From Clostridia bacterium (GTDB taxonomy: Bacteria > Bacillota > Clostridia > Oscillospirales > CAG-272), in assembly GCA_017466445.1 (NCBI GenBank), contig JAFTUC010000030.1, positions 1-51,076 of the forward strand: DNA of 51,076 nt, in the 5' to 3' direction. The position numbers were made by a program, and so were the translations under genes. Under the pieces are notes generated by a model that was not told where the DNA came from, ran no database searches, and worked only from the letters and a program-made list of their open reading frames with translations. Below, in pieces: positions 4,424-22,056 of this stretch; position 1 is the stretch's first letter; every line of letters starts with the position of its first letter.

Positions 4424-5063
4424 TTGCGGCTCCGACCTTTTCAAGGAACGCTCCATACAGATCTTCCTCTGCACGTTGTCGTGCTTTAATAGCATCTTCT
4501 ATATTCTTGTACGTTCCCAAATAATATCTCTTTCTTTGGAAGATGATCTGCGCCCTGTATCGGTCGAACTTGGATTCATAATAGATTCCACGGTATCCGC
4601 TTGTATTGGCGGCACCGGGAGTCATATCCCTGATCTTGGAGAGCTGCGTTCCCTCTACGAAGCCTGCGGACTTCCTTGCGATTTCCGCTGCAAATTTGCC
4701 TTGGCAATCCTGGCACATACTTTCGTCGGGACTAGTAAGAGTATCGGTTGCTTTATAAGTAATATTGCCGCACTCGCAACGACACTCCCACATGGGCGTT
4801 GTTCGAGCACCACGAGGGTTTCTTTTGTCGGAGCGTCCGATCACAGTGAGCCGACCGAATACTTTTCCCGTCAGATCGGGAGATTTCTTACAACCGCAAT
4901 TCGTTGAATGACCGCTGTTAAGATTTCCGCTTGTGGCGATATGCTCACCGCCGCAGTCGCATTTGCAAAGCCATCTGCGCTGGCCACATGCGGTAGATGG
5001 TAGTTGTTCTACAACCGTTAATTTTCCAAATCGTTTCCCGATAAGTGATGGAAATTCTCTCAT
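4410..5063 (-). CDS. Cys-rich zinc-knuckle repeat protein with AP2 domain (paralogue 1)
   Basis: About 217 residues with two copies of the repeat (KRFGKLTVVE...CKCDCGG...CGC, KVFGRLTVIG...CRCECGN...CQDC) and an AP2 domain near residues 160-210 (SGYRGIYYESKFDRYRAQI, YYLGTYKNIEDAIKAR). The start MREFPSLIG at 5063 is preferred over the ATG at 5090, because AAAGGA lies 9 bases before it and it aligns with the start of the paralogue downstream. The two genes overlap by 14 bases and are probably co-transcribed, arising by tandem duplication. The last repeat is degenerate (CQDC in place of CGC). Likely DNA-binding, mobile-element-associated; function unproven. Confidence 0.75.
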   Translation of the reverse strand: MREFPSLIGKRFGKLTVVEQLPSTACGQRRWLCKCDCGGEHIATSGNLNSGHSTNCGCKKSPDLTGKVFGRLTVIGRSDKRNPRGARTTPMWECRCECGNITYKATDTLTSPDESMCQDCQGKFAAEIARKSAGFVEGTQLSKIRDMTPGAANTSGYRGIYYESKFDRYRAQIIFQRKRYYLGTYKNIEDAIKARQRAEEDLYGAFLEKVGAANEQG

Positions 5064-5086
5064 TTTTATCAGTCCTTTGTAAAAAA

Positions 5087-5121
5087 CCATTCCGACACAT
5101 ACGGCGACGGAATGGCTTTTT
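5087..5121. terminator. Bidirectional terminator between the SipW array and the zinc/AP2 pair
   Basis: CCATTCCG and CGGAATGG form a stem followed by CTTTTT on the plus strand and GGTTTTTTAC on the minus strand. On the minus strand it sits after the adhesin gene at the end of the tetR-sipW array. Confidence 0.65.
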
Positions 5122-5333: not shown

Positions 5334-6773
5334 TTAAATTCTGCTGCGTTTTCTGTCGTAAACCACAAGGGCTACAAATGAAGAGCTACTGACGATCATC
5401 AAAATGAACCACAGCGTGAGGTTGGAGTTATCTCCGGTTGGAGGTGTCACGGGTGTGCCTGCATCGTAGGTGTTCTCAAACGTTGCATTCAAAGCATCCA
5501 CGCTCTTGCCATCCATTGTGAGAGCTGCGACCAATTCATTGTTTTCGCTTAGAGATACTGTGACGGTGATCTCATGAACGTCCGTATCGTAGGTCATTCC
5601 CGCAAAGCCCTGGTTTGTTTCGGAGAGCTTAAAGGTATAGGTCTTGCCGATGTCTGCCTTTGTATATGTCAGCGAGAAGGCTGCCTTACCGTTATCGTCA
5701 GAGGTTGCGCCCAAGCTTTCGGAGGTAGCAACGTTTTTCAGAACGAATTGGAAGCCGCCTTTTCCGTGAGTAGCTTCGCCGACGTTACTTATGATCTTAT
5801 CAATGCCGATCTGCACGGTGATGGGATCGGGATCGGGGACAACGGGAGGCACAAAGGTATTGTTGAACGTCACGGAAACTGCGTAGCCATCGTTTGTTTT
5901 GGTCACGGCTGCATTCTCGGTGCCGGAGGCGGTATTGATCTCCAGCTTGCCGTCCATGTCCACGTCGGTCACCTTAACGGTAAAGTGGTTGACGGTCTTG
6001 TCGTAGTCCACGTTTTCCAGTGTTCCCACAATCTCGCTCATGCGAAAGGTGTATGTACCGACCTTATCAAAGGTCAGAGCCCTGAATACATCGCTGAAAT
6101 CAAACTTGCTGAAATCGTCGTTTTCTGCATCGTAGGTTACGGTCTGCTCGCCGAGCTTGGTCCAGTTCTCTCCGGCTTTCTGTTCAAGCACGAAGGAGAA
6201 GCTGTCACCGACCTGCCACCGGCGGCCTTCCAAGACCTTGACACCGCCGACGGTGACATTGCTCGGCTTCACTGCATCGGGAGTGTAGGTGTTTACGAAG
6301 CTGATGCTTGCCGTGCCGTTTGCACCTACGGTTACCGTCTTGGTCGCATCGCCCTTCACCGCGAAGCCATCAAGGGATGTCATTTTCTCGGTTACCTTTA
6401 CAACCGTTCCTTCTTCAAGACCTTCAATGCCAAAGGTTGCACCGGGCTTGATGGTAACACTCAGAGTGCCGCTTGCGTCGACGGTCATTTCTCCGGCGGA
6501 AGTATTCAGTTTTGCGCCTGCATAATAGGCACCAAGTTCGACGTTGAAGTCGAAGCGGATATTGTCGGGGATGGCATAATCATCACCCAGGGGATGCTCC
6601 ACTGTTTTGCTGATCGCCAGAGTGCTTACGCCTGTCGCGCCGGGGACGAATACGTTGGTGATCGGGTCTGTTTTCGTCACGATATAACAGTATGTGGTGC
6701 CAATCGTCGAGGTGATCAGCATCACAAGCGACAGAAGCATCGCTATTCTTCTTAATATTTTGCCTGTTCTCAA
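5334..6773 (-). CDS. Pilin-like surface adhesin with isopeptide-type domains and PPTGD sorting signal
   Basis: 479 residues. The N-terminal hydrophobic segment (RIAMLLSLVMLITSTIG) and following YIVTKTDPITNVFVPG resemble the SipW-processed leaders of the neighbouring genes. Repeated beta-domains follow with motifs typical of streptococcal pilin-type isopeptide domains (FSFVLEQK, YTFRMSEI, FQFVLKN, YTFKLSETNQG, and the FxNTY/FxNTF strand at each domain end). The C-terminus has PVTPPTGDNS, a hydrophobic helix and DRKRSRI, a cell-wall sorting signal for a sortase not in this window. The start is TTG, chosen for GGAGG 8 bases upstream. Last gene of the array; likely anchors fibres to the wall (inference). 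Confidence 0.8.
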   Translation of the reverse strand: MRTGKILRRIAMLLSLVMLITSTIGTTYCYIVTKTDPITNVFVPGATGVSTLAISKTVEHPLGDDYAIPDNIRFDFNVELGAYYAGAKLNTSAGEMTVDASGTLSVTIKPGATFGIEGLEEGTVVKVTEKMTSLDGFAVKGDATKTVTVGANGTASISFVNTYTPDAVKPSNVTVGGVKVLEGRRWQVGDSFSFVLEQKAGENWTKLGEQTVTYDAENDDFSKFDFSDVFRALTFDKVGTYTFRMSEIVGTLENVDYDKTVNHFTVKVTDVDMDGKLEINTASGTENAAVTKTNDGYAVSVTFNNTFVPPVVPDPDPITVQIGIDKIISNVGEATHGKGGFQFVLKNVATSESLGATSDDNGKAAFSLTYTKADIGKTYTFKLSETNQGFAGMTYDTDVHEITVTVSLSENNELVAALTMDGKSVDALNATFENTYDAGTPVTPPTGDNSNLTLWFILMIVSSSSFVALVVYDRKRSRI

Positions 6774-6917: not shown

Positions 6918-8345
6918 TTATTCAGCAACAACGGTGTACCAAGTCATGCCGTCAACCACGTTGGAAACAACCTTATAGCCATCAGCCAAAAGATTTCCGT
7001 CGGGAGAAGATGCAGGATTCCAATTCTTAAAGGAACCGCCGGAAACATCGACAAGCGAGATATTTCCTTGTCCATAAATATTAATAAGGTTCCAATAAGC
7101 AGTTTCATAAGTACCGCCGCTTACATTGAGTTTGCCCCAAATTGCATACAACATATCGTTGTTTGTGGTGCACTTATAATGGCCACCTTCGATATTGATT
7201 GTAGTAGCCGCATCATACGCAACAAAAATACCGCAATCACCAGTCACAGTACCATTTCCCTTGACGGTAAAGTTGTGACCACCGTTCACGAAAAATACGT
7301 CAGAAGCATAGCTCGGAGCATCCACGGTAATGTTATGACCATTCAGATCCAGTACCATATCAGCCTTGATCAGAAATGCGGAGCCATCGCTGTGACCGCC
7401 ATCGGCTTTGTAAAGTAACTCGGTAGAGCTTACATTGATATCAGCGGCAAGCTTGTATTCGCCGCCGGTTGCCATAGCCTCACGGAGTTCCGCAAGAGTC
7501 TTAACACTGGGAACGATCACGCCGTCAAACCACTCAGCAGCCTTTTCAGAGGACTTACCGAAGCCGGCATCAAGAGCAGTCTTTGCATCAGCAAAGCCGT
7601 CAGCCTGAACAGCCTGAGAGAGAACGAGGATTTCATATTTGCCGTTCTTGTTGCCGTCGATCTTCTCAACATCCTCGTTGGTAGCGGTGGAGCGCATATA
7701 AACCTGACCCAAACTGCACTGGGTAACTTCACCTGCGGGAAGAATACCGTTTTCATGGAAGCCCTTGTCGGGTCTGCCATTATAGGTATACTCCAGCACT
7801 ACGTAGTTGTTGTTTTCTACGGTAATGGAGCCGATTACAACAGGTTTTCCCCACGAAAAATGGTAAGAAGTGCTAACTACTTTGCCCCATTCTTCAGTAC
7901 TAAGAGAACCAGACTCGAAAGCAATAAGGGTACGGACATAGGCATCGGTCTTGCCGGTGTTCTCAACAAAGACGAACTTGTCGACTGCGTTGGGCTCAAC
8001 AAACACATTCATTCCGCCGCCGTTTGCGCCGACCTGCTCGAACATTGCGTTGGTGCTTTCATAAGTCCACTCAGCGGAGTTTGTCGGAATAGTAGCAGGA
8101 TACAAGGGCTTATCCTGAGTAAAGGGCTGGAGCTTATAGCCTCCTACGCTGCTATCCACAACATAGTCGCCATTGGCATCCACAGCACGCTCATACTCAT
8201 GCTGAGCAATGGACACATTGCCGAGTGTCATTACGTTTACGTCGCTATCGTCATCCTGTAAGTATGCAATAGTGCCGCCGATAGCAAGTGCGGCAACAAG
8301 CACGTATGCGGTACACATCAAGAGTACCTTTTTGAGTTTTGACAT
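6918..8345 (-). CDS. TasA-like SipW substrate with C-terminal beta-helix domain (paralogue B)
   Basis: 475 residues. The leader (KVLLMCTAYVLVAALAIGG) and TIAYLQDDDSDVNVMTLGNV form the SipW-dependent TasA/camelysin-type N-terminus. The TasA-like domain has the conserved KFVFVENTGKTDAYVRT and ends with QAVQADGFADAKTALDAGFG. A second half of Gly/Asn-rich strands (LDLNGHNITVD, VFFVNGGHNFTVKGNG, KLNVSGGTYETA) looks like a right-handed beta-helix. The start ATG at 8345 is supported by AAAAGGAGG. The first 54 residues are nearly identical to paralogue D, down to the nucleotides, while the tails differ. Likely a secreted fibre or matrix subunit with a variable display domain (inference). Confidence 0.8.
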   Translation of the reverse strand: MSKLKKVLLMCTAYVLVAALAIGGTIAYLQDDDSDVNVMTLGNVSIAQHEYERAVDANGDYVVDSSVGGYKLQPFTQDKPLYPATIPTNSAEWTYESTNAMFEQVGANGGGMNVFVEPNAVDKFVFVENTGKTDAYVRTLIAFESGSLSTEEWGKVVSTSYHFSWGKPVVIGSITVENNNYVVLEYTYNGRPDKGFHENGILPAGEVTQCSLGQVYMRSTATNEDVEKIDGNKNGKYEILVLSQAVQADGFADAKTALDAGFGKSSEKAAEWFDGVIVPSVKTLAELREAMATGGEYKLAADINVSSTELLYKADGGHSDGSAFLIKADMVLDLNGHNITVDAPSYASDVFFVNGGHNFTVKGNGTVTGDCGIFVAYDAATTINIEGGHYKCTTNNDMLYAIWGKLNVSGGTYETAYWNLINIYGQGNISLVDVSGGSFKNWNPASSPDGNLLADGYKVVSNVVDGMTWYTVVAE

Positions 8346-8370
8346 ATATGTATGCCTCCTTTTGATATTT

Positions 8371-8426
8371 GCCTGCATTTAAGTCTTAACTTTCCTTCGA
8401 TAATGCAGGCTTTATATCGAAGAAAG
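8371..8426 (-). promoter_or_regulatory. Possible pseudoknotted leader upstream of paralogue B
   Basis: GCCTGCATT (8371-8379) can pair with AATGCAGGC (8402-8410), and the CTTTCCTTCGAT arm ending at 8401 with ATCGAAGAAAG (8416-8426). The two helices interleave, so they form a pseudoknot or mutually exclusive hairpins some 25-80 bases before the gene start. No known riboswitch class recognised. Confidence 0.4.
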
Positions 8427-8438
8427 CGTTTTGCCTTT

Positions 8439-8503
8439 CGGCAATCAAAAGGTACAAGACTCGCTTATGCCCTTTGATTACCGCCCATCGAAAGCCGATG
8501 GGT
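8439..8503 (-). repeat. Two-hairpin intergenic element, copy 2 (H1+H2)
   Basis: Minus strand: CCCATCGG-CTTT-CGATGGG then CGGTAATCAAAGGGCATAAG pairing with CTTGTACCTTTTGATTGCCG. Sits between the short relative at 8513 and paralogue B. The stem bases vary from copy 1 while pairing is kept, which argues for an RNA structure. Confidence 0.75.
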
Positions 8504-8512
8504 AGCTGCTTG

Positions 8513-9223
8513 TTACTGCATTCCCCAAGGTTTGCTCACTTGACTCCAAGCGCCGTCATCGCTGACTACCTGACTGTAGGCACGAACCTCGTACTTGCCG
8601 TCGTGGTTTCCATCGAGCCTGTTGGCGGTGTCATTTGCCACATCGCTCTTGAGCAGAATTTGCAGGAGACTGGGAGCTGTGGTCGCTCCAACATCAAGTG
8701 CGTTTTTATACTCAGCACAGACTACTGCGTAACGTTCACCGTCGATCTGAACACCGTAGGTAAATTCTCCCCAAGTCCACCGGGTGGAGTTTTGGTTAAG
8801 AAGCACGGAGGCTTTGAATTCATCCTCGGTCAGATCGCCCATCTCAAAAGCAAACCAGGTGCGAACGTAGCCGACGTGATTGCCGGTGTTGGTGATCACC
8901 ACAATGTGATCCAGCACGTTCTCGGCGGTATACATATCCGCATTGACCGACAGATCTACGTTTACTGTGTTATTCTTTTTGTCAGTCACAGAAAACTGTT
9001 CGTTGAGCTGCACAGATTGCTTTGTCAGTTCCGCGTCGGTTACGAGCAACAGCTCCCGATCATCGGCTACCTCTGTCAGACCGGAGCCGCTTCGCTCTAG
9101 CTCCGACTGCACGATGCACAAATACTTTTCGTCGGAGCTTTCGTCACCGAGGGAGCCGTTGATAGCAACGACGGTCAGCATTGCCAAAAGCGCGGTTATT
9201 CCTATCCATTTAAGGGTTTTCAA
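8513..9223 (-). CDS. Shortened TasA-like relative lacking the SipW signature (paralogue C)
   Basis: 236 residues with an N-terminal hydrophobic segment (WIGITALLAMLTVVAIN) but no AYLxDxDS-V-N-x-(F/M)T-x-G signature. The body keeps TasA-family features seen in the neighbours: ITNTGNHVGYVRTWFAFEMG and LDGNHDGKYEVRAYSQVV, with DGAWSQV near the end, and no beta-helix tail. The start is TTG with TTGGAG about 8 bases upstream. It may be a capping or accessory subunit, or a decaying copy; the sequence does not decide. It lies between two H1+H2 elements. Confidence 0.65.
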   Translation of the reverse strand: MKTLKWIGITALLAMLTVVAINGSLGDESSDEKYLCIVQSELERSGSGLTEVADDRELLLVTDAELTKQSVQLNEQFSVTDKKNNTVNVDLSVNADMYTAENVLDHIVVITNTGNHVGYVRTWFAFEMGDLTEDEFKASVLLNQNSTRWTWGEFTYGVQIDGERYAVVCAEYKNALDVGATTAPSLLQILLKSDVANDTANRLDGNHDGKYEVRAYSQVVSDDGAWSQVSKPWGMQ

Positions 9224-9272
9224 AATTTCATCTCCAATTTTAACCCGAATATTTCAGGATCATTTGCCTGTA

Positions 9273-9336
9273 CCGGCAATCAAAAGGCACAAACACGAGA
9301 CTTATGCCCTTTGATTGCCGCCTATCCCACGAGGGG
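9273..9336 (-). repeat. Two-hairpin intergenic element, copy 3 (H1+H2)
   Basis: Minus strand: CCTATCCCC-TCGT-GGGATAGG followed by CGGCAATCAAAGGGCATAAG pairing with CTTTTGATTGCCG. Between paralogue D and the short relative C. Best conserved in the H2 stem with copies 1 and 2. Confidence 0.75.
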
Positions 9337-9363
9337 ATAGGACGGGCTGTAAAATAACAATTA

Positions 9364-11016
9364 TTAAGCGTTCTGCCAATCAGTGATGGTTGCATACTCA
9401 ACGCCGTTAGCAATGATCTTGCCAACAGTTGCGCCATCTTCGATGGTAATGTTGATCTTTGTCTTGTTGGCAATAGCGGAAAGATCAATCGCACCAACGG
9501 TAGCACCGGCCTCGATAGTAAGGCCATACTTGGAGGTATTCATATTTCCGCGAACAATGACAGTTTCAACATCGGAACCGTCAGCAACAGTAACCTTTGC
9601 CTGATTCCACATGTAGAGGGATCCGATATTGCTGTTATTTACGGTAAGATCCGAATAGTTAACAGCAGCAATGTCATATACGGGCCACATGGGATCGGTA
9701 TCAAGTTCAGAGAGAGTCGTGCCGTAAACGTTGCAGTTGTTAAGAACCGCGGTACCATAGACACAAGCGGCGGGAGAAATACCGGCAGAGAAAGAAACAA
9801 CTTCAGTATTGACGATATCAACGTTATTGAATTCGGTGTTATACCAATTGGAGCTACTGTTAACATAATGTCCAAGAGAAACAGCAGACATGGTACCAGT
9901 GAAGGTCAAATCGTTTACAGTAACCTTGCTGCCGTCAGCAGACGAGAAAATAGCAGACATTGCGGGAATTGTGCCGCCTTCCCACTGGAATGCATCTACA
10001 GAGGTAGCAACACCTTCTACAGTAGCACCGTTGCCGTTAATAGTAACAGGAGCGGTAACCTTCTGAGTGTGGAAGTATGCAGAGTCGATGGTGTATACGT
10101 CACCGTTGAGATCGTAAGTACCAGCTTCGGTAATGCCAACTTCATCAGCCACGATGGTATTTGCCCAAGGATGATTGGTAGCGGTGATGTCACCGAAGCC
10201 TGCGTTCAGAGCGGTCTCGGCGTCAGCAAAACCGTCAACCTGAACAGCCTGAGAGAGAACGAGGATATCGAGGGTGCCGTTGCCGTTGCCGTCGATAGCA
10301 ACCATATCCTCGTTAGTAGCATTGTGCTTCAGATAAACCTGGCAAAGGTTGGGATAAGTAGTATCGCCTGCGGGGAGAATACCGTTTACGTGACGGTTAA
10401 CGTCGCTTGCTCCACGGTATACGTACTCGAAGAGGAGGTAGGTGTTGTTGTCAATTACGATCTTACCGATCTCGTACTCGATCCAAGGCATGGTGCTGCT
10501 TGCTGCTTGATCAGCGGCAACACAACGGTCACCGGTTCCGATAAGCGCGGGATTGCCGGTTCCACACTCAATTGCAACGAGAGTACGGATATAAGCGTCG
10601 TTCTTGCCGGTGTTCTCAACGGTCACAAACTTATCCTGCGCATTCTTGCCTGCAAACACTTGCATACCGCCGTAGGAATCGACCTGAGTCATACGGACAA
10701 TAGTGTTGTCGAAGCCGGCATAAGCGGGGCTGTTGCCGGGCTCGTTAGGATCACCAACGATAGGCAGCAGGGGCTTGCCCTGTGTGAAGTCCTTCAGAAC
10801 ATAGCTTGTTACACCGTCGATGGTATCGGTCTTGTAGGAGCCGTCTGCGTTGGTTGCACGCTCATACTCATGCTGAGCAATGGACACATTGCCGAGGGTC
10901 ATTACGTTTACGTCGCTATCGTCATCCTGTAAGTATGCAATGGTGCCGCCGATAGCAAGCGCGGCAACAAGCACGTATGCGGTACACATCAAGAGTACCT
11001 TTTTGAGTTTTGACAT
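9364..11016 (-). CDS. TasA-like SipW substrate with C-terminal beta-helix domain (paralogue D)
   Basis: 550 residues, the longest of the set. Same leader as paralogue B (KVLLMCTAYVLVAALAIGG, TIAYLQDDDSDVNVMTLGNV), TasA-like core with KFVTVENTGKNDAYIRTLVA and LDILVLSQAVQVDGFADAET, then a different C-terminal domain from about residue 290 with beta-helix strands (DLTFTGTMSAVSLG, NVDIVNTEVVSF, LTVNNSNIGSLYMWNQ, LTIEAGATVGAIDLS). The ATG has AAAAGGAGG upstream. Over the first ~160 bases it differs from paralogue B by only a few substitutions, suggesting recent duplication or gene conversion. Presumed secreted matrix or fibre protein. Confidence 0.8.
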   Translation of the reverse strand: MSKLKKVLLMCTAYVLVAALAIGGTIAYLQDDDSDVNVMTLGNVSIAQHEYERATNADGSYKTDTIDGVTSYVLKDFTQGKPLLPIVGDPNEPGNSPAYAGFDNTIVRMTQVDSYGGMQVFAGKNAQDKFVTVENTGKNDAYIRTLVAIECGTGNPALIGTGDRCVAADQAASSTMPWIEYEIGKIVIDNNTYLLFEYVYRGASDVNRHVNGILPAGDTTYPNLCQVYLKHNATNEDMVAIDGNGNGTLDILVLSQAVQVDGFADAETALNAGFGDITATNHPWANTIVADEVGITEAGTYDLNGDVYTIDSAYFHTQKVTAPVTINGNGATVEGVATSVDAFQWEGGTIPAMSAIFSSADGSKVTVNDLTFTGTMSAVSLGHYVNSSSNWYNTEFNNVDIVNTEVVSFSAGISPAACVYGTAVLNNCNVYGTTLSELDTDPMWPVYDIAAVNYSDLTVNNSNIGSLYMWNQAKVTVADGSDVETVIVRGNMNTSKYGLTIEAGATVGAIDLSAIANKTKINITIEDGATVGKIIANGVEYATITDWQNA

Positions 11017-11041
11017 ATATGTATGCCTCCTTTTAGTATTT

Positions 11042-11072
11042 GCCGTCTATCCCCCGAAGGGGATAGGACGGC
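11042..11072 (-). repeat. H1-only hairpin upstream of paralogue D
   Basis: GCCGTCTATCCCC-CGAA-GGGGATAGGACGGC, a strong stem with one small asymmetry, in the short gap between paralogues E and D. The H2 part is absent here. Confidence 0.7.
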
Positions 11073-11091
11073 GTGGATTAATACGGGTCAA

Positions 11092-12528
11092 TTATTTGAT
11101 AGTAACTACAGGAATGTTGCCGCCGCGGATGATGCCGTCGGTGTTGTCAACATAGTAGACAGGAGTACCACCATTCATAGTACAGGAGTCGAAAGTGACG
11201 GACAGGCCGTTGGAGCCAGCCACAACAACACGGTTGTTGAATTCGCAGTTGTTGAACTCAGCGGGGCTGTACACACGGATGCCCTTCTCAGACCAAATGG
11301 AGGTGGAGGTGGTCTCTTCGAACACGCAGTCGTTGAAGGTTACAGTAGCGGTCATATCCTTGTTTGTACCGATCTGAATCTTGCCGGACTTGAAGGTGCA
11401 GTTATTGAATACCAGGTCGCCGAACAGCTCGTCATAGTGGACAGCGGCGTTATCTGCTCCACAATCAAAGGTACAATTGGTGAAGGTCGCATCGTTGATG
11501 TACATATAGTTCATGTGAGCGGTGAAGGTGCAGTCAACGAAGTCAACGTTGCGATCCTTATAGTAACGACCATTGAATTTGTTCTCATCAATGGTAGCGC
11601 CAACGACAACGAGATCCTTCTCACCGGCATCCAGAGCAGCATACATATCATCAGCGGAGGAAACGGTCACGGGAACCTTCACACCATCAGTCCAAGGATG
11701 GTTGGTAGTGGTGATATCACCGAAGCCAGCGTTCAGAGCGGTCTCGGCGTCAGCAAAGCCGTCAACCTGAACAGCCTGCGAGAATACGAGTATCTCGTAA
11801 GTGCCGTTCTTGTTGCCGTCGATCTTCTCAACATCCTCGTTGGTTGCAGTAGCCTTCATATAGACCTGAGCAAGGCTGGGATAAGTAGTGTCGCCTGCGG
11901 GAAGAACGCCGTTCTCGTGAACGCCGCCCAGATCCTTCGCGCCTTCGTAGATGTACTCGGAAACATAGTAATTGTTGCCGTCAATCTCAACAACGCCGAT
12001 ATCGGTTACTTTCCAAACGCCCTGGGCAGTCATGAAGCTGCTCGTACTGATAACTTCATCAAATCTGGCCTCAGTCAAAGAACCGATTTCCATAGCGATA
12101 ATCGTACGAACGTAAGCGTCGGTCTTACCGGTGTTCTCAACGGTTACGAACTTGTCGATAGCGTTCTCATTTACGAACACGTCCATAGAGCCGTGGGAGC
12201 CAACCTGAGACATTTTTACACGGGTGGGGCCGTAATCACCTGCACCGTAGTTGTAGGGGTTGCCGTTAGCATCGAGCTCAGTTGCGGGGTAAAGGGGCTT
12301 TGCCTGTGTGAAGTCCTTAAGGACATAGCCGTAAGTGGCATCAGTCTTGTAGGAGCCGTCTGCGTTGGTGGCACGCTCATACTCATGCTGAGCAATGGAC
12401 ACGTTTCCAAGGGTCATGACGTTTACGTCGCTATCGGAATCCTGTAAGTATGCAATGGTGCCGCCGATAGCGAGAGCCGCAACGAGGGCGAGGCTGAGAC
12501 CTGACAAAAGAATGTTTTTCAGTTTCAT
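11092..12528 (-). CDS. TasA-like SipW substrate with C-terminal beta-helix domain (paralogue E)
   Basis: 478 residues. Leader LSLALVAALAIGG with TIAYLQDSDSDVNVMTLGNV, TasA-like core (KFVTVENTGKTDAYVRTI; YEILVFSQAVQVDGFADAET) and a third, different C-terminal tail from about residue 290 with repeated strands NNCTFKSGKIQIG, FTNCTFDCGAD, FNNCEFNNRVVVAG, FDSCTMNGG. The repeated (F/N)xxC(T/E)F pattern is a pentapeptide- or beta-helix-like coil with an inward Cys ladder. Start supported by GAAAGGAAAG. The N-terminal leader differs from B and D but the signature onward is near identical. Presumed secreted surface or matrix protein. Confidence 0.8.
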   Translation of the reverse strand: MKLKNILLSGLSLALVAALAIGGTIAYLQDSDSDVNVMTLGNVSIAQHEYERATNADGSYKTDATYGYVLKDFTQAKPLYPATELDANGNPYNYGAGDYGPTRVKMSQVGSHGSMDVFVNENAIDKFVTVENTGKTDAYVRTIIAMEIGSLTEARFDEVISTSSFMTAQGVWKVTDIGVVEIDGNNYYVSEYIYEGAKDLGGVHENGVLPAGDTTYPSLAQVYMKATATNEDVEKIDGNKNGTYEILVFSQAVQVDGFADAETALNAGFGDITTTNHPWTDGVKVPVTVSSADDMYAALDAGEKDLVVVGATIDENKFNGRYYKDRNVDFVDCTFTAHMNYMYINDATFTNCTFDCGADNAAVHYDELFGDLVFNNCTFKSGKIQIGTNKDMTATVTFNDCVFEETTSTSIWSEKGIRVYSPAEFNNCEFNNRVVVAGSNGLSVTFDSCTMNGGTPVYYVDNTDGIIRGGNIPVVTIK

Positions 12529-12622
12529 TGGTCATCTTTCCTTTCAAAAATAGTATAAAATTTGGTTATGTAACGGGTCGCCCCTTTACATCATGGATTT
12601 GTTCAGACATCCGTCTGCGGGA

Positions 12623-13258
12623 TCAGTTGCTGCTTTGGCCGATAAGCGCCCAAGCTTCTGCGGCGGAGTCGATGGCATCGATGCTCATGTCACGCTGAAC
12701 AGCATAACCGGTGAAGGTCATTTTGGGATAGTTGGAGCTATTGAGCGCCTGGAGCATTGCCTGTGTTACACTGCCCTTAACAGTGACCTGATCGTCCTTC
12801 AGTACAGAGAATGTCTGTTCCGCAGAACTGTTGTCCACCGTGCGGTAGTATACGCCTTCAACGCCATTCAGAGCCGTCCAACCGTCGGCAATAGCATACT
12901 CAATGAAATCATCGATCGCCTTGTCGCTGGATTTCTCGATCTTCACGAACAGCCAGCAATCTTCACTGTCGGCCAATACGGAGATCTTCGGGTCTTTCTC
13001 GATCACCTTGCCGGGGGTCATCTTGAAGTAGCGTCCGTCCGTCAGTTCCTCACCCTTCGTTTCTGTAAGGGTTATGCGGATATCGCCGTAGGTAAATACG
13101 TTGACGATGGGTTTGGTCGAGGTCATCAACCACGCAAGAGAGCCGCCGATCACGGAGAAGATCATGAGGCAGACCACAAAGGACATAAGGGCTGCCTTCA
13201 AGGCAGAATCCTTACGGCGGTGACTGCGCTTGGGTGCAGAGTATTTTCCGCGATACAT
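12623..13258 (-). CDS. TasA/camelysin-like SipW substrate (paralogue F)
   Basis: 211 residues. A basic N-terminus (GKYSAPKRSHRRKDSALK), hydrophobic leader (SFVVCLMIFSVIGGSLAWL) and MTSTKPIVNVFTYGDIRITL, the SipW-type signature. The core carries LPG-like MTPGKVIEKDPKISVLADSE and VKIEKSSD, as in camelysin/TasA proteins, and ends in IDSAAEAWALI. No beta-helix tail. It could be the main structural subunit. A 13-bp stem covers its ribosome binding site (13261-13314), suggesting translational control. Confidence 0.8.
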   Translation of the reverse strand: MYRGKYSAPKRSHRRKDSALKAALMSFVVCLMIFSVIGGSLAWLMTSTKPIVNVFTYGDIRITLTETKGEELTDGRYFKMTPGKVIEKDPKISVLADSEDCWLFVKIEKSSDKAIDDFIEYAIADGWTALNGVEGVYYRTVDNSSAEQTFSVLKDDQVTVKGSVTQAMLQALNSSNYPKMTFTGYAVQRDMSIDAIDSAAEAWALIGQSSN

Positions 13259-13340: not shown

Positions 13341-13979
13341 TTATTTAGAGAATGCTGTCCAAGCATCATCGGCACTGGCAAAGCCGGTTGCCTGAATTGC
13401 GTGAGCTTCAACGGTGATCTTCAGATCGGCGATGGTTGCAAGCTGCTCGCCGGTTATGGTGTCGGGGACGGTCACGGTATCGAAGAGAGCTTCGAGAACG
13501 AGATCGTCATTCTGTTCGGGCTTGACAGTCTTGAAATAACGGAACTCATAAGTGATCGTATTATCATTTCCTCTTGTCACATCAACGTATTCCCACTTGG
13601 TGGCATCGTAGCCCTTGAAGATCTCGGTAAGAACAGCACCGTTGGGAGCAAAAATGGCATCCAATTCACCGGCGCAGTTAAGGGTGAGCATCATACGCAC
13701 GTAGGATTCATCGCTGCCCTTCAGAACGGTAACGGTGGGGTCTTTTGTGTAGGTTTCGCCGGGAAGAAGGTGGTACGCATTTCCGGTTTCGGTTCTGCCG
13801 CCGGTGGGTTCACCTTTTTCATCCACCACAGCTTCATCGAGCTTTAAGTGTACGTTTCCTACGGTGAATGTATTGACGACCGAGGCAGTATCCTGCAAAT
13901 AGGCAACGGTTCCGAGGATCGCGCCTACCGCCAGGAGGATTGCGCACAGTGCTAGTACGAGGGGTTTAGATCTTTTCAT
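13341..13979 (-). CDS. TasA/camelysin-like SipW substrate (paralogue G)
   Basis: 212 residues, starting MKRSKPLVLALC. Hydrophobic leader with TVAYLQDTASVVNTFTVGNV, then the camelysin/TasA core: LPGETYTKDPTVTVLKGSDE, SYVRMMLTLNCAG, and the C-terminal AHAIQATGFASADDAWTAF shared by this family. The ATG at 13979 has AAAGGAG 8 bases upstream and overlaps the end of sipW by 14 bases; a longer frame from 14027 has no better site. Closest in layout to the classical sipW-tasA pair, so probably a fibre subunit exported by Sec and cleaved by the adjacent SipW. Confidence 0.85.
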   Translation of the reverse strand: MKRSKPLVLALCAILLAVGAILGTVAYLQDTASVVNTFTVGNVHLKLDEAVVDEKGEPTGGRTETGNAYHLLPGETYTKDPTVTVLKGSDESYVRMMLTLNCAGELDAIFAPNGAVLTEIFKGYDATKWEYVDVTRGNDNTITYEFRYFKTVKPEQNDDLVLEALFDTVTVPDTITGEQLATIADLKITVEAHAIQATGFASADDAWTAFSK

Positions 13980-14523
13980 TGTCGGATTCTCCTTTATGTT
14001 CATTTTTATTTTTTGACTTTTTATCATCGGTGATCGTATCCACGACCATCACGAAGAAAATAGTTGCAAGTGCCGTGCCGATGGCAACGTAAAGTCCCGG
14101 CGGACGTTGGATATACATAGCCAAATGTCCAAGAAGCGGGATACAGAAGATCACTTTACCTTCGACCTGCTCAAACTCCACGAGGCTGCCATCATAGTCA
14201 TCGTTGTTATCGCCCTTTGTGCGGAAGCGGACAATGCTCGGATCGTCCTCATCGGGGATGATCTCCTTGATGCGGTGGGTGGCCGTGGTATTTTCGGATA
14301 TCCGGTAGGTGATCACGTCATCCACCTCAAGCTTTGCCGGATCGACGTCCACAAGGTAGATCAGTGATCCTGTAGGATACTTCGGCTCCATCGACGGTGA
14401 CAGAACTGTCAAGATATCAATACCGAAGATCCTAACACCAACAAGCAGGATGGCAAGAATAATAACCACAACGAGAAGCGAATTAGAAGCTATCTTCAGT
14501 GCTTTTTTCAATTTTGAATTCAT
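13966..14523 (-). CDS. sipW: Signal peptidase I, SipW type
   Basis: 185 residues. N-terminal membrane helix (ASNSLLVVVIILAILLVGV), catalytic serine in LSPSMEPKYPTGS (about residue 44) and histidine in TTATHRIKEI (about residue 83), the Ser-His arrangement of the ER/archaeal-type enzymes to which SipW belongs, instead of Ser-Lys. A C-terminal helix (YVAIGTALATIFFVMVV) and a charged tail follow. The ATG at 14523 is preferred to a GTG at 14538, because GAGGTG then lies upstream at a usable distance. It should release the mature TasA-like proteins encoded downstream. Confidence 0.88.
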   Translation of the reverse strand: MNSKLKKALKIASNSLLVVVIILAILLVGVRIFGIDILTVLSPSMEPKYPTGSLIYLVDVDPAKLEVDDVITYRISENTTATHRIKEIIPDEDDPSIVRFRTKGDNNDDYDGSLVEFEQVEGKVIFCIPLLGHLAMYIQRPPGLYVAIGTALATIFFVMVVDTITDDKKSKNKNEHKGESDNEKI

Positions 14524-14540
14524 ACTTGTTGCGCTCACCT

Positions 14541-15119
14541 CTATTCACGGAAGTACTGTTTTACCGAGGCGTAGATCACGAGGAACACGTGCTCGACGTA
14601 ATGATCCTCTTCTGACATTTGCCCGTTGTGTGCCTTTACCGCAAAATCGAGCATTACGTTTAATATGTGGTTGAGGATCATCCACACATCTGCCTCATCC
14701 TTGAAGGCTTCCTTGAATTTTTCCACGACCGGTACATAGCGGCGTTTATGGCTTTCGGCAGAATATTTTGTAAAATACGGCGAATAATAATACCGAACGA
14801 ACGCCAGGCACTTTTCCTTGTTACCGAGCAGGAACTTCCAAACTGCTTCAAAAAACACTCTGCAACGCAGCTCGTATTCCAACTCCCGCATATACATCAC
14901 CGGAAGGTGTTGCATTACTTTAGCGACGAGTTCCTCATCCAGGGTGTCAAAGACATGAGACAGAAGATCCTCTTTATCACTAAAGTAACGGTAAATATAT
15001 GCTTCGTTGATGTCCGTTCCCTTGACGATGGCTTTGGTCGTAGTTTTATCCAAACCGTTTTCTGCAATGACTATGATTGTCCGATCAATCAGTCGGCTTT
15101 GCACATCATAGTGCTTCAC
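14541..15119 (-). CDS. TetR/AcrR family transcriptional regulator
   Basis: 192 residues. N-terminal helix-turn-helix near residues 10-55 (TTKAIVKGTDINEAYIYRYF then SDKEDLLSHVF), the standard TetR layout, followed by a helical ligand-binding domain with aromatic clusters (FVRYYYSPYFTKY). The start is GTG with AAAGGAGG 8 bases upstream. First gene of the tetR-sipW-tasA-like array, 17 bases ahead of sipW, so it probably regulates the array or itself. No strong promoter is visible in the 140 bases between it and the inverted repeat at 15260, which is relevant to the proposed promoter switch. Confidence 0.85.
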   Translation of the reverse strand: MKHYDVQSRLIDRTIIVIAENGLDKTTTKAIVKGTDINEAYIYRYFSDKEDLLSHVFDTLDEELVAKVMQHLPVMYMRELEYELRCRVFFEAVWKFLLGNKEKCLAFVRYYYSPYFTKYSAESHKRRYVPVVEKFKEAFKDEADVWMILNHILNVMLDFAVKAHNGQMSEEDHYVEHVFLVIYASVKQYFRE

Positions 15120-15259
15120 GGGAAATAGCCTCCTTTCTCTGTATTGTTAAGCATTTGCTATTTTTGTAACAGAAAATAGGCAGACAACTCCCCATCCAGT
15201 CCATAAGCTGCGGTTTTCAAATAATTACGAACCAACGAGGTTGCCGGCCTCACAACATA

Positions 15260-15280
15260 TTCGCAGAGTTCAGCACTCTG
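15260..15280. repeat. Left 21-bp inverted repeat of the recombinase segment
   Basis: TTCGCAGAGT TCAGC ACTCTG; the exact reverse complement is at 16710-16730. The repeat is itself a dyad with 7-bp arms (GCAGAGT / ACTCTGC) around a non-palindromic 5-bp centre TCAGC, the shape of a tyrosine-recombinase core site. A TetR operator is the main alternative reading. Confidence 0.75.
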
Positions 15281-15288
15281 CCGTATAT

Positions 15289-15322
15289 GAGAAAAAGCCC
15301 CTTGGATAAAGGGCTTTTTCTC
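15289..15322. terminator. Terminator between integrase and tetR
   Basis: GAGAAAAAGCCC(CTT) pairs with (AAAG)GGCTTTTTCTC, a near-perfect hairpin with U-rich arms on both strands. It should stop integrase transcription before tetR. It lies inside the inverted-repeat segment, 8 bases from the left repeat. Confidence 0.8.
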
Positions 15323-15353
15323 ATTTGGGACGGAGTTTTTTGACGGCGTATAA

Positions 15354-16475
15354 TCAGAAACCTATTGCTGTGAGTTTACTCATATTACTTCTTTTCAGTT
15401 CCATGGAGGAATGAACATATCGCTCTAATGTGATTTGGGGACTGGAGTGACCTAATATCTCACTGAGGGATTTAATTTCAAAATCCACTTCAACGCAACG
15501 AGTAGCAAAGGTATGGCGGAGTGTGTGAAAATGAACACCTTCCAGTCCGCACTTTGCAGTATATCGCTCCAATTTGTATTGCATCGTTCTCGGCTCAATA
15601 AAGCGGTCTGTTTCTCCCGTCAAAACAAATGCGGAAGGATTGCTGCAAAATATGGTTTTACATAGATTGACTGCATATTCTGTTAGGGGTATCATTCGGA
15701 CGGAGGTATCGCTTTTAGGCTCGCTGATAACAACTTTTGTTTTTGCGTCTCCATTCCCATCCAAATTCTGAAGGCGTTGCATCGTAGCTTTTACCTTGAT
15801 CGTTTGTTCCTTTATGGATAAGTTTTCCCAACGCAGAGCACACACCTCCCCGATCCGCATACCGGTAACAAGAGCAAGTAGTACGCCGAATTTACACTCA
15901 TCCATATCTTCAAGCAAATATTTTACAAAGCGGGTTTGTTCTTCTACGGACATAACCCGCATTTCATTTTTCGGAACCTTTGGATAAGCAATCTCGATCA
16001 TTGGCAATGGATCCGGGAACTGTCTGCTTGTGTATTTGATGACCGAATGCAGCATCGTCAAAATATCTTTCACGGTCTTGGGCGATAACTCCTCCTCATA
16101 CAGCAGATCGTGGCTGAACTGCTCTACAATCAAGGATGTCAGCGATTGCACAAGGCAACCGCCCAGCTTGGGTTTAATATGTTTTTCAATAATACCGCTA
16201 TACTTTACATAGGTGGATTCCTTAATGCGGCTACGATTGATTCGCAACCATTCATCACAATAGAACGCAAAACGCCGTTTGCGCGAAGTTGTTGCTATCG
16301 GTTTTTCCGTTAGCAGAGCCGTCTTTGCCTGTGTTACCTTTTGCTTGGCTTCACGGTATGTTTTACCGTAGCAATAGCCGTACTTTGGTGTTCCGTCCGG
16401 GTGGTAGGCCTTAATATATCGCGCCTCCCACCGCTTGTCCTTACGTTTGTAGATGTTTTCGCCTTTTTTTGACAT
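15354..16475 (-). CDS. Tyrosine recombinase (Tn916/phage integrase type)
   Basis: 373 residues. N-terminal arm-binding domain (IYKRKDKRWEARYIKAYHPD), SAM-like core-binding domain (FYCDEWLRINRSRIKESTY) and catalytic domain with Arg207 in TGMRIGEVCALRW, His317 and Arg320 in HTLRHTFATRC, His343 in LGHSSPQITLERY and nucleophile Tyr353. All catalytic residues are present, so it is probably active. The ATG at 16475 has GAAGGAGG upstream. It sits alone inside a segment bounded by perfect 21-bp inverted repeats, which predicts inversion rather than excision. It may instead be the end of a decayed integrative element. Confidence 0.9.
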   Translation of the reverse strand: MSKKGENIYKRKDKRWEARYIKAYHPDGTPKYGYCYGKTYREAKQKVTQAKTALLTEKPIATTSRKRRFAFYCDEWLRINRSRIKESTYVKYSGIIEKHIKPKLGGCLVQSLTSLIVEQFSHDLLYEEELSPKTVKDILTMLHSVIKYTSRQFPDPLPMIEIAYPKVPKNEMRVMSVEEQTRFVKYLLEDMDECKFGVLLALVTGMRIGEVCALRWENLSIKEQTIKVKATMQRLQNLDGNGDAKTKVVISEPKSDTSVRMIPLTEYAVNLCKTIFCSNPSAFVLTGETDRFIEPRTMQYKLERYTAKCGLEGVHFHTLRHTFATRCVEVDFEIKSLSEILGHSSPQITLERYVHSSMELKRSNMSKLTAIGF

Positions 16476-16509
16476 AATGATGTCCTCCTTCAATTATTGG
16501 GTATATATT

Positions 16510-16539
16510 ATTTTAAATGACAGATTTGATTTTTTTCAA
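16510..16539 (-). promoter_or_regulatory. Candidate promoter of the recombinase gene
   Basis: Minus strand TTGAAA, 18-base spacer, TAAAAT, about 35 bases before the ATG. A second strong AAAAGGAGG motif further upstream on this strand (near 16625) is not followed by a start codon. Confidence 0.45.
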
Positions 16540-16671
16540 ACAACAAGGTAAGACGGAACATTTGACGGCGAATTTGTTTGTGAAAATGCCCAAATCGACC
16601 CGTTTCCGGGGTGATACCTCCTTTTAAAATGTAAATTTTTATGAAAATTCTGTTTAAACGCCTAAAACCTA

Positions 16672-16700
16672 TTGCAATTTCAAAAGTTTTGTGCTATAAT
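16672..16700 (+). promoter_or_regulatory. Consensus sigma-A promoter inside the inverted-repeat segment, pointing outward
   Basis: TTGCAA, 17-base spacer ending TGC, TATAAT (extended -10). Its start site would fall at the edge of the right inverted repeat. No coding gene lies downstream on this strand for nearly 2 kb; the transcript meets a terminator about 95 bases on. Confidence 0.8.
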
Positions 16701-16709
16701 CTGTATCCA

Positions 16710-16730
16710 CAGAGTGCTGAACTCTGCGAA
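16710..16730. repeat. Right 21-bp inverted repeat of the recombinase segment
   Basis: CAGAGTGCTGAACTCTGCGA plus A, exact reverse complement of 15260-15280. Identity stops abruptly at both sides of the 21 bases. Confidence 0.75.
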
Positions 16731-16772
16731 AAAAACTAATATTTTATCATAGTGCGTTATATGTTTTCAAAG

Positions 16773-16802: not shown

Positions 16803-16841
16803 CGTTCAGAAGATGAAACATGGCAATCTAAAAAGCAAGAA

Positions 16842-16887
16842 AAAAAGCCAACATTGAAAGCTTCTCTACTTTCGATGTTGGCTTTTT
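16842..16887. terminator. Bidirectional terminator
   Basis: AAAAAGCCAACATTGAAAG and CTTTCGATGTTGGCTTTTT pair with one G-T wobble, giving A/T-rich flanks on both strands. Confidence 0.75.
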
Positions 16888-17176
16888 CACGATAGTCAAT
16901 ATGAATTTCTATAGTTCGGTCGTATGCTGCGGATATAGATTTAGCCTGCTGTGTGCAATGCTTCCGCAGATTCCAATATTTTTTAGATTGATTTCGCGAC
17001 GAATTTTTTTGTTTGCCACTAATAACTAATATGATTTGCTTATGCTGAAAGACTTTGGTACAAAATCAAGCGGCTATTTCAAGATTCTTTGTTATGCTTT
17101 CTGTTCGGCACCCGTGCGTTTCACTTTGCAATTGAGTCTCAAGTTCACCGACCGTAAAAGTCAGGGGAGGGCTTTT
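16888..17176. other. Intergenic stretch, nothing recognised
   Basis: Between the terminator pair and the acyltransferase gene I see no gene, RNA or repeat I can support. Confidence 0.4.
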
Positions 17177-19242: not shown

Positions 19243-22056
19243 TCAAGCCTCGGGGGTCTCGGGCTCTTCGGGATTCTCGGGCTCTTCGGGATTCTCGGGC
19301 TCCTCGGGAGTCTCGGGAACGGGAGTATGATCGGGGATCTTGGTCTCGACCTTGATTCCGAGAGTCTTCTCATTCACCTTGAGATACGATCCTGCGGGAG
19401 CGTAGAATTTTACGTTATCCGAGCCTGCGGCGAAGTCATTTCCGAGAGTGATCTCACCCGCAACAGATCCTGCGGGAGCGTCCTCGGGAAGCTTGTAAGA
19501 CGTTGCAACGAAGATAAGCTCTGCGAGTGCGGGGCAGTTTGCAAAAGCCTCACTTCCTACGGTCTTTATCCAGGAAGGAATATAGACCACCTCGACGCTT
19601 GCGTTGCCCTTGAATGCACCGTCTGCGATCTCGACTACAAAGAGGTTGTCTGCGTCAAACATCTCGGGGATAACGACGATCTTATCGCTTCCCTTATATT
19701 TGAGGATTCTGACGCCGTCCTTTTTGATAACGACGATCTCTTCCTCGCCGGTCTCTTCATTTACAACGGTCTCGGTATATTCGATAGCGTCCTTTATTAT
19801 CTCATATTCGAAATTCTCGAAGTACTCGGTCTTGATCTCGCCGATAAATCCGAGTCCCACGTGATTTACTGCATTTCCGTCGATATCGACGTAGGATCTT
19901 ACGTAAAGATCGAATGCGCTATAAACGATCTTGTCGCCCGAAACACGGCTTCCGAGATATCCGTAAGCGGTGAAGTTCTTGTTAACAACCGGCTTTGTGA
20001 TAATACCTTCGATAACAACGTCATTTTCAAGGAATCCGAACGCATATCCGCCGATCTTACCGAGCTTTTCACCGAATCTGAGCTCGGTGAGTGCGGGGCA
20101 GTTGAAGAATGCGCCTCTTCCGACCTCATAGAGGTTTGCGCCAAGCTTAACGCTGGAAAGATTGAGGCAGTTTCTGAATGCGTCAACGCCGATTGTAAAG
20201 AGGCTATCGGGAAGGATTATATCTTCAAGTGCGGTACATCCCATAAATGCCTTCGCGCCGAGAGTTTCGATCTGTCCGAGGATAGTGACCTTCTTAAGAG
20301 CGGTACATCCGTCGAAGAGTCCGTTTACGGTAACGCCTATGGGAAGCTTGGGCTCGTCATGCGTAAGGCTCACGCAGCTTGCGGGGATAGTCACCTCTGC
20401 AAGAGACGTGCAGTTGCTGAACACCGCCATACCCATTCTTTCAAGACCGGTCTCGTGAAGGTTTATACTCTTAAGCGAGGAGCAGTTTCTGAACGCGAAA
20501 TACTGGATTATCTTAAGCGAAGCGGGAAGCTTGATATTCTCGATAGAAGAACAGTTCTCGAAAGCATAAAGAGCGATGGTCTCAACGGTATCCGGAAGAG
20601 TTACGCTCTTAAGAGCGGTACATCCGCTGAACATTCCCTCGGGAATGAGCTTTGCGCTTCCGTTTATCGAGATGCTCTTAAGAAGCGTGCAGTTCTGGAA
20701 TGCGTACGCGCCGAGCGTCTTAACGCTTGAGGGAACATTGAAGGTCTCAAGCGAGGTGTTCATGAACGCCTTCGCTTCGATAGCGGTAAGGCTTGCGGAG
20801 AAGTTTACGTCCTTAAGCTTGTTGCAGTTTGCGAAAGCCATCTCGGGAATAACGACAACTCCACTCGGGATCGTAAGCTCTTCAATAGCAAGCGATCCGA
20901 AAACTCCCTTTCCGAGTGTCTTGAGGCTTGCGGGAAGCTCAAGCTCGGTCACAAGGTCACATCCGAAGAATGCGAACGCGCCAATCGACTCAAGAGCGTT
21001 GCCGAGCGAGATGCTCTCGATATTCTTGCAGTTATAGAACGCGTATGCGCCAAGCGACTTAACAGTATCGGGAAGCTCTACATTTTCAATAAGCGCACAG
21101 CCGTAGAATGCCTTGTCTCCGATCGATTCAAGCTTTTCGGGAAGGTTTATTTCCTTAATATTATAGCAACAGAAGAATGCCTCATCGCCGATCTTGGTAA
21201 CGTCGTTTCCGATAACGATCTCAGTAAGATTCTTACAGGACGAAACGATTCCGGCAGGAATCTCGGTAACGCCCTCGGATGCAGTGATCTTAGTAAGCGA
21301 CTCGCAGAAATAATACACGTCCTTGCCGTAGGAGATGCTACTGTCTATATCAACGCTCTCGATAGCGGTGAAGGCGAACGCTCTGTCACCTACGGTCTTG
21401 AGCTTTTCGGGGAAATTGACAGTCTTAAGGTTAGCGCAGGATCTGAACGCATCCGCACCTATGTACTCGATGCTGTCGGGAAGCTTGATCTCGGATGCGC
21501 TGACCTTATAGAAAGCGCCATTTCCGACAGCCTTGACCTCGATCATCTCGGTATGTCCCGCCATTCCGTTCTGGATGCAGTCCTCACAGACCTCGTCATC
21601 GTCCTCTGCGGCAGCGGCAAGAGCGTTTGCCTCGGGAACGTTACTGTCTTTATCGTCATCGTCGGGAGTCTCCTCGCCACCCTCGTCGGGCTCGGGCTCA
21701 GGCTCGGGTTCGGGCTCGGGTTCGGGCTCGGGAATATCTACGTAGATAAACTCAACTGTTCCGGGAATCTCTATAACGTCCTTAGGGCAGAAGCAATCGT
21801 ATACGACTGCGCCGTTTTCGTAAATAGCGTAAACGACCTTCTGGAAGGTAACGGTCGTTCTGTATCTGCCGAGACCGTAATCAACATCGCCGGTAGGACT
21901 TACGTTAGTGTCCACTCCGGAGGTACTGGGACCCGGGGTGTCATCGAGCTCGGTGTCCTTATTGCCACTGTCAGTCTTTTTCTTGTCGTTGCCGGAACAA
22001 GCAAAAAGAGAGAGGGAAAGAACCATAGCCAGTAAAAGTGCGATAAGTTTCTTCAT
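19243..22056 (-). CDS. Large leucine-rich-repeat (BspA-type, LRR_5) lipoprotein
   Basis: 937 residues. Lipoprotein leader LLAMVLSLSLFACSG with Cys20 as lipid anchor, then an acidic low-complexity linker rich in EPEP and DDDD, and some 20 repeats of about 23 residues of the BspA type (for example VGDRAFAFTAIESVDI, IGDEAFFCCYNIKEINLPE, LGAYAFYNCKNIESISLG). Close to the C-terminus the beta-strand pattern continues (DGAFKGNASVEVVYIPSW), followed by a Pro/Glu tail (PEEPENPEEPE). Such proteins are displayed at the cell surface and often bind host or matrix ligands; ligand unknown. Has its own promoter and is monocistronic. The long plus-strand frames within it are antisense shadows. Confidence 0.88.
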   Translation of the reverse strand: MKKLIALLLAMVLSLSLFACSGNDKKKTDSGNKDTELDDTPGPSTSGVDTNVSPTGDVDYGLGRYRTTVTFQKVVYAIYENGAVVYDCFCPKDVIEIPGTVEFIYVDIPEPEPEPEPEPEPEPDEGGEETPDDDDKDSNVPEANALAAAAEDDDEVCEDCIQNGMAGHTEMIEVKAVGNGAFYKVSASEIKLPDSIEYIGADAFRSCANLKTVNFPEKLKTVGDRAFAFTAIESVDIDSSISYGKDVYYFCESLTKITASEGVTEIPAGIVSSCKNLTEIVIGNDVTKIGDEAFFCCYNIKEINLPEKLESIGDKAFYGCALIENVELPDTVKSLGAYAFYNCKNIESISLGNALESIGAFAFFGCDLVTELELPASLKTLGKGVFGSLAIEELTIPSGVVVIPEMAFANCNKLKDVNFSASLTAIEAKAFMNTSLETFNVPSSVKTLGAYAFQNCTLLKSISINGSAKLIPEGMFSGCTALKSVTLPDTVETIALYAFENCSSIENIKLPASLKIIQYFAFRNCSSLKSINLHETGLERMGMAVFSNCTSLAEVTIPASCVSLTHDEPKLPIGVTVNGLFDGCTALKKVTILGQIETLGAKAFMGCTALEDIILPDSLFTIGVDAFRNCLNLSSVKLGANLYEVGRGAFFNCPALTELRFGEKLGKIGGYAFGFLENDVVIEGIITKPVVNKNFTAYGYLGSRVSGDKIVYSAFDLYVRSYVDIDGNAVNHVGLGFIGEIKTEYFENFEYEIIKDAIEYTETVVNEETGEEEIVVIKKDGVRILKYKGSDKIVVIPEMFDADNLFVVEIADGAFKGNASVEVVYIPSWIKTVGSEAFANCPALAELIFVATSYKLPEDAPAGSVAGEITLGNDFAAGSDNVKFYAPAGSYLKVNEKTLGIKVETKIPDHTPVPETPEEPENPEEPENPEEPETPEA

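Follow-up and report, generated by a model that had tools for sequence, protein, structure and literature searches.

We identified a 1,471-bp (1.47-kb) segment at positions 15260-16730 of a 51,076-nt stretch of DNA from a Clostridia bacterium (hereafter the window) that we infer, from sequence comparison, to be a self-contained invertible promoter, or inverton, switching an operon headed by a tetR gene; we give this reading a probability of roughly 0.93. An integrase encoded within the segment would recombine the two inverted core sites at its ends and thereby turn around everything between them, the integrase gene as well. In the orientation found in this assembly (OFF), the promoter would read away from the operon and into a terminator; in the opposite orientation (ON), as in the related locus L076, it would cross the repeat and transcribe tetR, and transcription would presumably continue into the sipW, TasA-like and pilin-like genes behind it. 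Coordinates are collected in Table 1; W denotes the window's own cassette, L-numbers denote loci of relatives, and G-numbers denote genomes.

Table 1. Features of the candidate switch, its target operon and a second candidate in the same genome.
Feature	Position	Strand	Basis or remark
Left inverted repeat, presumed core recombination site	15260..15280	+	Adjoins tetR; breakpoint of L076 inversion
Right inverted repeat, presumed core recombination site	16710..16730	-	Adjoins promoter; breakpoint of L076 inversion
Tn916-type tyrosine integrase, presumed invertase	15354..16475	-	Likelier ATG start; ORF 15354-16493 opens at TTG
Candidate arm-like motif GTC-N9-GTC, integrase-start end	16552..16566	-	Motif search
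Candidate arm-like motif GTC-N10-GTC, integrase-stop end	15329..15344	-	Same direction as integrase-start motif
Outward sigma-70-type promoter TTGCAA-17-TATAAT	16672..16700	+	Consensus scan; in this assembly it points away from tetR
Terminator hairpin between integrase and left repeat	15285..15335	-	-24.6 kcal/mol, z -7.2; listed by pattern scan
Hairpin outside right repeat	16842..16887	+	Would halt promoter in OFF state; folding; unlisted by pattern scan
TetR-family regulator, opening gene of target operon	14541..15119	-	Protein-family match
SipW-type signal peptidase	13966..14538	-	TIGR02228 above cut-off; NF046067 (E 1.5e-26) below cut-off
SipW-dependent (TasA-like) secreted protein	13341..14027	-	TIGR04088; ORF overlaps sipW
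Other array ORFs, presumably secreted	12623-13258, 11092-12528, 9364-11016, 8513-9223, 6918-8378	-	Span 6918..13258
Pilin-like protein, FctA/isopeptide and DUF7601 domains	5334..6773	-	Domain matches
Second candidate inverton	L070:7924-9769 = C22 about 104923-106768		Recombinase outside repeats

The segment ends in perfect 21-bp inverted repeats, which our repeat search found again where a preliminary description of the window had placed them. Each reads CAGAGT-TCAGC-ACTCTG, a dyad with an asymmetric TCAGC centre, also as described there. Searching the window with the 21-bp sequence at up to three mismatches returned two sites, both already known (none in 100 shuffles), and the 17-bp dyad at zero mismatches occurs at these two sites alone in the 52-contig assembly (completeness 87%). 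A search of the same genome for a second target in trans, allowing up to two mismatches to the site pattern, gave the known two and two weaker matches, none convincing (the control gave one match). Tandemly doubled core sites, which might permit different crossovers, occur in L041, L094, L101 and, at the integrase-stop end, L077.

The ORF between the repeats matches Pfam Phage_integrase (E 5e-25) and, as claimed earlier, encodes an intact tyrosine recombinase with the R-H-R-H-Y residues: R213, H323, R326, H349 and Y359 are invariant across 12 aligned integrases, its own counted. The ATG at 16475 is the likelier start because AAGGAGG precedes it (read by eye). This is the sole ORF of at least 80 aa between the repeats, where shorter ORFs mostly overlap it, and the transfer genes of a Tn916-type mobile element are absent. 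In the predicted structure, the N-terminus forms strands at residues 14-16, 22-30 and 36-43 and a helix at 46-61 (pLDDT about 70-83 there). Three strands and one helix make up the N-terminal arm-binding domain of the IntTn916 subgroup according to PMC8138268, and by the secondary structure of the model the integrase is predicted to carry a domain of this type. A Pfam search of this region returned no match even at E 1, so the arm-binding assignment stands on the predicted model. For the core-binding and catalytic part, with strands 231-257 outside the comparison, the nearest solved structures are Tn1549 Int fragments, that is, a Tn916-family integrase; among the 50 structure matches listed, the N-terminal region was reached by full-length lambda Int (1z1b, 1z1g) only.

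A consensus scan recovered the outward promoter beside the right repeat that the preliminary description had reported; by sequence consensus, it would start inside the segment and exit through this repeat. On the tetR strand, a scan requiring 9 of 12 consensus bases listed no promoter in 15120-15259, in agreement with the earlier statement that the 140 bases before tetR hold no good one. The terminator proposed near the left repeat folds stably. As for the other terminator, said to await the promoter about 95 bases on, the strong hairpin is there (fold of 16835-16895 on the plus strand, -25.6 kcal/mol, z -7.3), but the distance needs correcting, as it begins about 110 bases past the right repeat.

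Behind tetR and sipW lies an array of genes for TasA-like and presumably secreted proteins, and a pilin-like gene. The real start of the first TasA-like protein is probably further inside its ORF, as the ORF overlaps sipW. ORF 11092-12528 matches TIGR04088, with a HalA match far below cut-off; the other four array ORFs had no NCBIfam match at E 0.001. Elsewhere in the window, a 937-aa protein encoded near the operon (19243-22056) matches the leucine-rich-repeat adhesin model HupY/LrrG well below cut-off, and one of two ORFs downstream of the fibre operon (3458-5090) has an AP2-domain match below cut-off.

Evidence for inversion comes from close relatives, each a metagenome assembly with one orientation per locus. 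In L076, a sheep rectum MAG by title, W 15260-16733 aligns at 95.4% to positions 3112-1638, that is, reversed. The tetR side (W 14550-15284) aligns to L076 942-1665 in the opposite direction to the segment at 72% (whole tetR ORFs, 64% identical), and past the right repeat the loci align over some 40 bp only, in the same direction as the tetR side. Both breakpoints fall at the repeats. The L076 promoter faces tetR (ON) and that of W faces away from it (OFF), so the prediction that inverting the segment would put the promoter before tetR is matched by an existing arrangement. A second pair, the two 'Lapin' MAGs L097 and L101, shares the segment at 97.2% and one flank at 95.5% over 5.8 kb, encoding an SLH protein and a type II/IV secretion ATPase; the segment is inverted relative to this flank, which adjoins the integrase-stop end of one cassette but the integrase-start end of its counterpart. 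The concern that all relatives might show one fixed orientation is thus not borne out: compared with W and L097, respectively, the segments of L076 and L101 are 95-97% identical yet inverted against homologous neighbours.

More distant comparisons add to this picture. A TetR gene lies at the integrase-start end in L034 (77% identical), L039 (28%) and L041 (29%), and at the integrase-stop end in W, L036 and L075, whose integrase is 99% identical to that of W and oriented as in the window. L039 is cut by a contig end, and no repeat was seen there. Where loci share homologous flanks, these sit at opposite ends in 50 pairs of loci and at matching ends in 67. Searches of three further genomes from the window's genus gave no integrase match at E 1e-60 and no tetR match at E 1e-20. 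With both orientations at homologous loci, breakpoints at the repeats and the same layout across the family (see below), these comparisons support the phase variation that the preliminary description had suggested.

Integrase matches at E 1e-60 or better were present in 31 of 295 genomes of the host's family (37 matches). We took 35 stretches around these matches and added the best 80 of 555 loci from a contig scan, which, once four duplicates (L078, L079, L092, L121) were dropped, gave 112 loci, 99 with enough flank. Inverted repeats flank the integrase in 73 of the 99, against 0.15 expected from shuffles, which, like all shuffles in our scripts, preserved single-base content only, and the other 26 showed no repeat above the score threshold. 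One of the 73, L066, was later left out, its best repeat being long and unrelated (a shorter repeat is also present); the remaining 72 and eight loci cut at one end make up the 80 cassettes considered below, in which the integrase lies between repeats by construction of the search. An outward promoter at the integrase-start end (score at least 9) was found in 61 of the 80 cassettes and in 15% of shuffles; at control positions the counts were 17/80 (same end, inward), 9/80 (other end, outward) and 7/80 (other end, inward). Promoter weights followed E. coli frequencies, and we set the promoter and repeat score cut-offs, 9 and 15, ourselves.

By ORF census, 32 cassettes are OFF-like, 15 ON-like and 13 undecided at contig edges; the target gene is not always clear, as genes point away at both ends in 19/80 and at neither in 1/80. 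We scanned 146 outward-pointing neighbours of 100 to 2000 aa (90 first, 56 second genes) against Pfam. Among the families listed (the first 25 of 113 and of 74), TetR_N occurred in 7/90 first and 3/56 second genes, signal peptidase S26 in 6 and 3, type II/IV secretion ATPase in 3 and 1, HTH_3 in 5/56, and DUF7601 and helicase domains in 4/90 each; SLH, sortase and sugar-transferase domains occurred two or three times each, and ribosomal proteins L10 and L12, a resolvase and an AMP-binding enzyme once each. Surface and regulator genes thus recur beside cassettes, yet other neighbours do too. In the complete genome of Blautia parvula NBRC 113351 (L096), the integrase-stop end adjoins a gene whose product, 543 aa long, combines DUF7601 with Listeria-Bacteroides repeats.

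Inside both ends, the cassettes carry candidate arm-like motifs. A tandem GTC motif is present inside the integrase-start end in 73/80 cassettes (1.7 expected) and inside the integrase-stop end in 70/80, in the same reading direction. In a stricter test, 35/80 cassettes repeat one and the same 5-mer with a spacing of 12 at one end and of 13 at the opposite end (0.5 expected); requiring 12 at both ends gave 22, and seven further pairs of spacings gave 0 to 5 each. At the integrase-start end, spacings of 8 and 9 are also slightly in excess (8/80 and 7/80, 1.9 expected). The GTC pairs look like the arm sites of an integrative element, and the N-terminal domain of the integrase may bind them.

The cassette also seems to have passed between distant hosts, in the case of L075 together with the operon. 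A 699-aa part of RpoB from the window's genome is 64% identical in L076's genome and 63% in L075's, AroA (encoded in the window) is 44% and 48% identical, and RadA is 52% identical in L076's genome with no match at E 1e-60 in L075's; the integrases are 97% (L076) and 99% (L075) identical to that of W. The W and L076 segments are 94-100% identical along most of their length and 75-86% in the final 170 bases of the promoter end; immediately outside, identity is 52-65% beside tetR, and at the opposite edge 58% followed by 32%. The edge of the shared unit is therefore sharp on the tetR side and less so at the promoter end. Wrong binning of contigs is conceivable as a source of such host differences, and the diverged flanks are independent of binning. 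Within the operon, tetR (14541-15119) is 67-82% identical to that of L075 in places, and the surrounding sipW and integrase segment mostly above 90%, a mosaic pattern.

The segment could instead be a small IS-like mobile element, an integrase with terminal inverted repeats, that came to lie beside tetR by chance and has no regulatory role. Terminal inverted repeats around a recombinase gene are what such an element would have, and a segment 95% identical between hosts with 64% identity in part of RpoB, with identity dropping outside the repeats, would also fit. We nevertheless regard this account as very unlikely: a chance neighbour would leave unexplained the outward consensus promoter at one end in 61/80 cassettes, the regulator and surface-structure genes that repeatedly adjoin them (other genes do as well), and the opposite orientations at homologous places. 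Target-site duplications of at least 4 bp, as insertion sequences leave, were found in 2/77, no excess over the control (1.2%). Movement and switching are not exclusive, and both can hold.

The design of the cassette resembles the integrase-and-ends module of a Tn916-type element, pared down to the integrase, whose core sites, being inverted, would yield inversion rather than excision. In a broader interpretation, a large family of arm-domain integrases, with the arm layout kept and the core sites inverted, would act as a plug-in switch, bounded by its repeats, that travels among distant Clostridia and inserts into or replaces the control regions of surface operons, possibly via integrase-driven cassette exchange. 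We offer this broader interpretation tentatively, at somewhat less than even odds, partly because the 75-86% identity between W and L076 at the promoter end blurs the edge of the unit.

A phage or plasmid origin was rejected, as the best relatives among 9 phage and 12 plasmid records were less than 60% identical at E 1e-30. A scan of viral contigs confirmed nine loci, identical at 50% at best. The identical viral contigs L174 and L175 have homologous flanks on opposite ends relative to L177; no repeat was found in either, and the pair was not counted as evidence of inversion. Three contigs filed as viral (L173, L177, L179) hold distant integrase relatives that are bounded by inverted repeats and accompanied by the GTC motif.

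The opposite orientations might instead be old, fixed rearrangements or assembly errors in an element that is now locked, a reading to which the single orientation of each assembled locus lends itself. We consider it highly improbable. On a tree of 52 integrases (the 32 OFF-like and 15 ON-like census loci plus L034, L039, L041, L097 and L101, labelled by hand from homology, three of which are 'both' in the census), orientation requires 17 changes, against a mean of 15.7 under shuffled labels, and well-supported branches force at least 11. Removing three long-branch rows (L132, translated out of frame, L063 and L053) gave 17 changes, 15.3 shuffled and 10 forced, and removing the five hand-set labels as well gave 14, 12.7 and 9. 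Orientation thus behaves on the tree as shuffled labels do. In 9/80 cassettes, about nine times the expected 1.02, a contig end falls less than 120 bp beyond a repeat, and in four 120-bp control intervals further out there were 0, 0, 1 and 2 ends; these breaks would fit mixed orientations confusing the assembler, and repeats alone can break contigs too. The two repeats of a cassette are alike and differ between cassettes (partly by construction, as inverted repeats were sought), and synonymous codon changes in the integrase outnumber others (47 and 5 for W versus L075; 17 and 10 for W versus L076), both of which argue against a locked element. We infer that the segment flips in living populations, probably by its own integrase and with an effect on fibre expression.

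Inversion by another recombinase in trans, conceivable because the genome has other tyrosine recombinases and because Mpi and RecV act at a distance (PMC5903667), has very little probability in our estimate, as repeat similarity tracks the identity of the enclosed integrase (Mantel r 0.50, 0/2000 permutations as high, with shared ancestry remaining in the permutation) and the putative arm motifs flank the integrase gene.

The same genome appears to hold a paralogous operon under a different inverton. On contig C22 (L070), another tetR, 67% identical to the window's, is followed by an apparent signal peptidase and TasA-like proteins (by eye). Upstream of it lie a separate tyrosine recombinase, outside the repeats, and 27-nt inverted repeats, 96% complementary and 214 nt apart, with a promoter (TTGCAA-17-TATACT) near-identical to that of the window and likewise directed away from tetR. 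An 18-base core of this repeat matched 3 of 290 genomes including its own, as a pair in G236 and singly near a contig end in G233. A candidate inverton before a paralogous operon supports the functional reading of the W cassette.

Several known systems resemble parts of this arrangement. In the Salmonella Hin/hix flagellar switch, the promoter lies inside the invertible segment; the fimS and RecV switches keep the gene for their recombinase outside the invertible DNA, and FimB, a simple recombinase, lacks an arm-binding domain. Tn916 has arm repeats, and its core sites are direct. W shares with Hin a recombinase gene within the invertible segment (described for Hin in PMC5903667); Hin is a serine recombinase, whereas W encodes a Tn916-type tyrosine integrase with arm-like motifs. 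Like FimB/FimE at fimS and RecV in Clostridioides difficile, W would use a tyrosine recombinase to invert a segment controlling surface genes. Tn916/Tn1549-type elements are the closest in protein and ends: the W integrase is nearest to Tn1549 Int fragments, has three predicted N-terminal strands and a helix, and is flanked by candidate arm-like direct repeats inside both ends. In contrast to these elements, W has inverted core sites, no transfer genes and one long ORF, and the apparent outcome is inversion. Finally, PMC11892184 reports inverton group 139 with invertase group 35 in gut Clostridia (32/33 invertons from Clostridia), also with a tyrosine-type recombinase/integrase nearby; two of its examples have about 206 and 228 bp between the repeats, too short for an integrase.

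Invertible promoters are therefore known, and Hin is a precedent for a recombinase inside the segment; what sets the present case apart is the enzyme class, the arm-like sites, and a cassette that is widespread and apparently transferable, a description of which we did not find in the open-licence literature searched. PMC8138268 treats the arm-binding domain as strongly predictive of phage or ICE mobility; if our reading is true, the dozens of members of this family would form a counter-example. The family points to a simple way in which the integration module of a mobile element could become a genetic switch, and it opens to testing the working of arm sites in a reaction that yields an inversion. 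The combination of core repeat, GTC pair and promoter is a recognisable signature by which more cassettes could be found. For uncultured gut Clostridia, the arrangement suggests a route to phase variation of TasA-like, SLH and type IV pilus operons.
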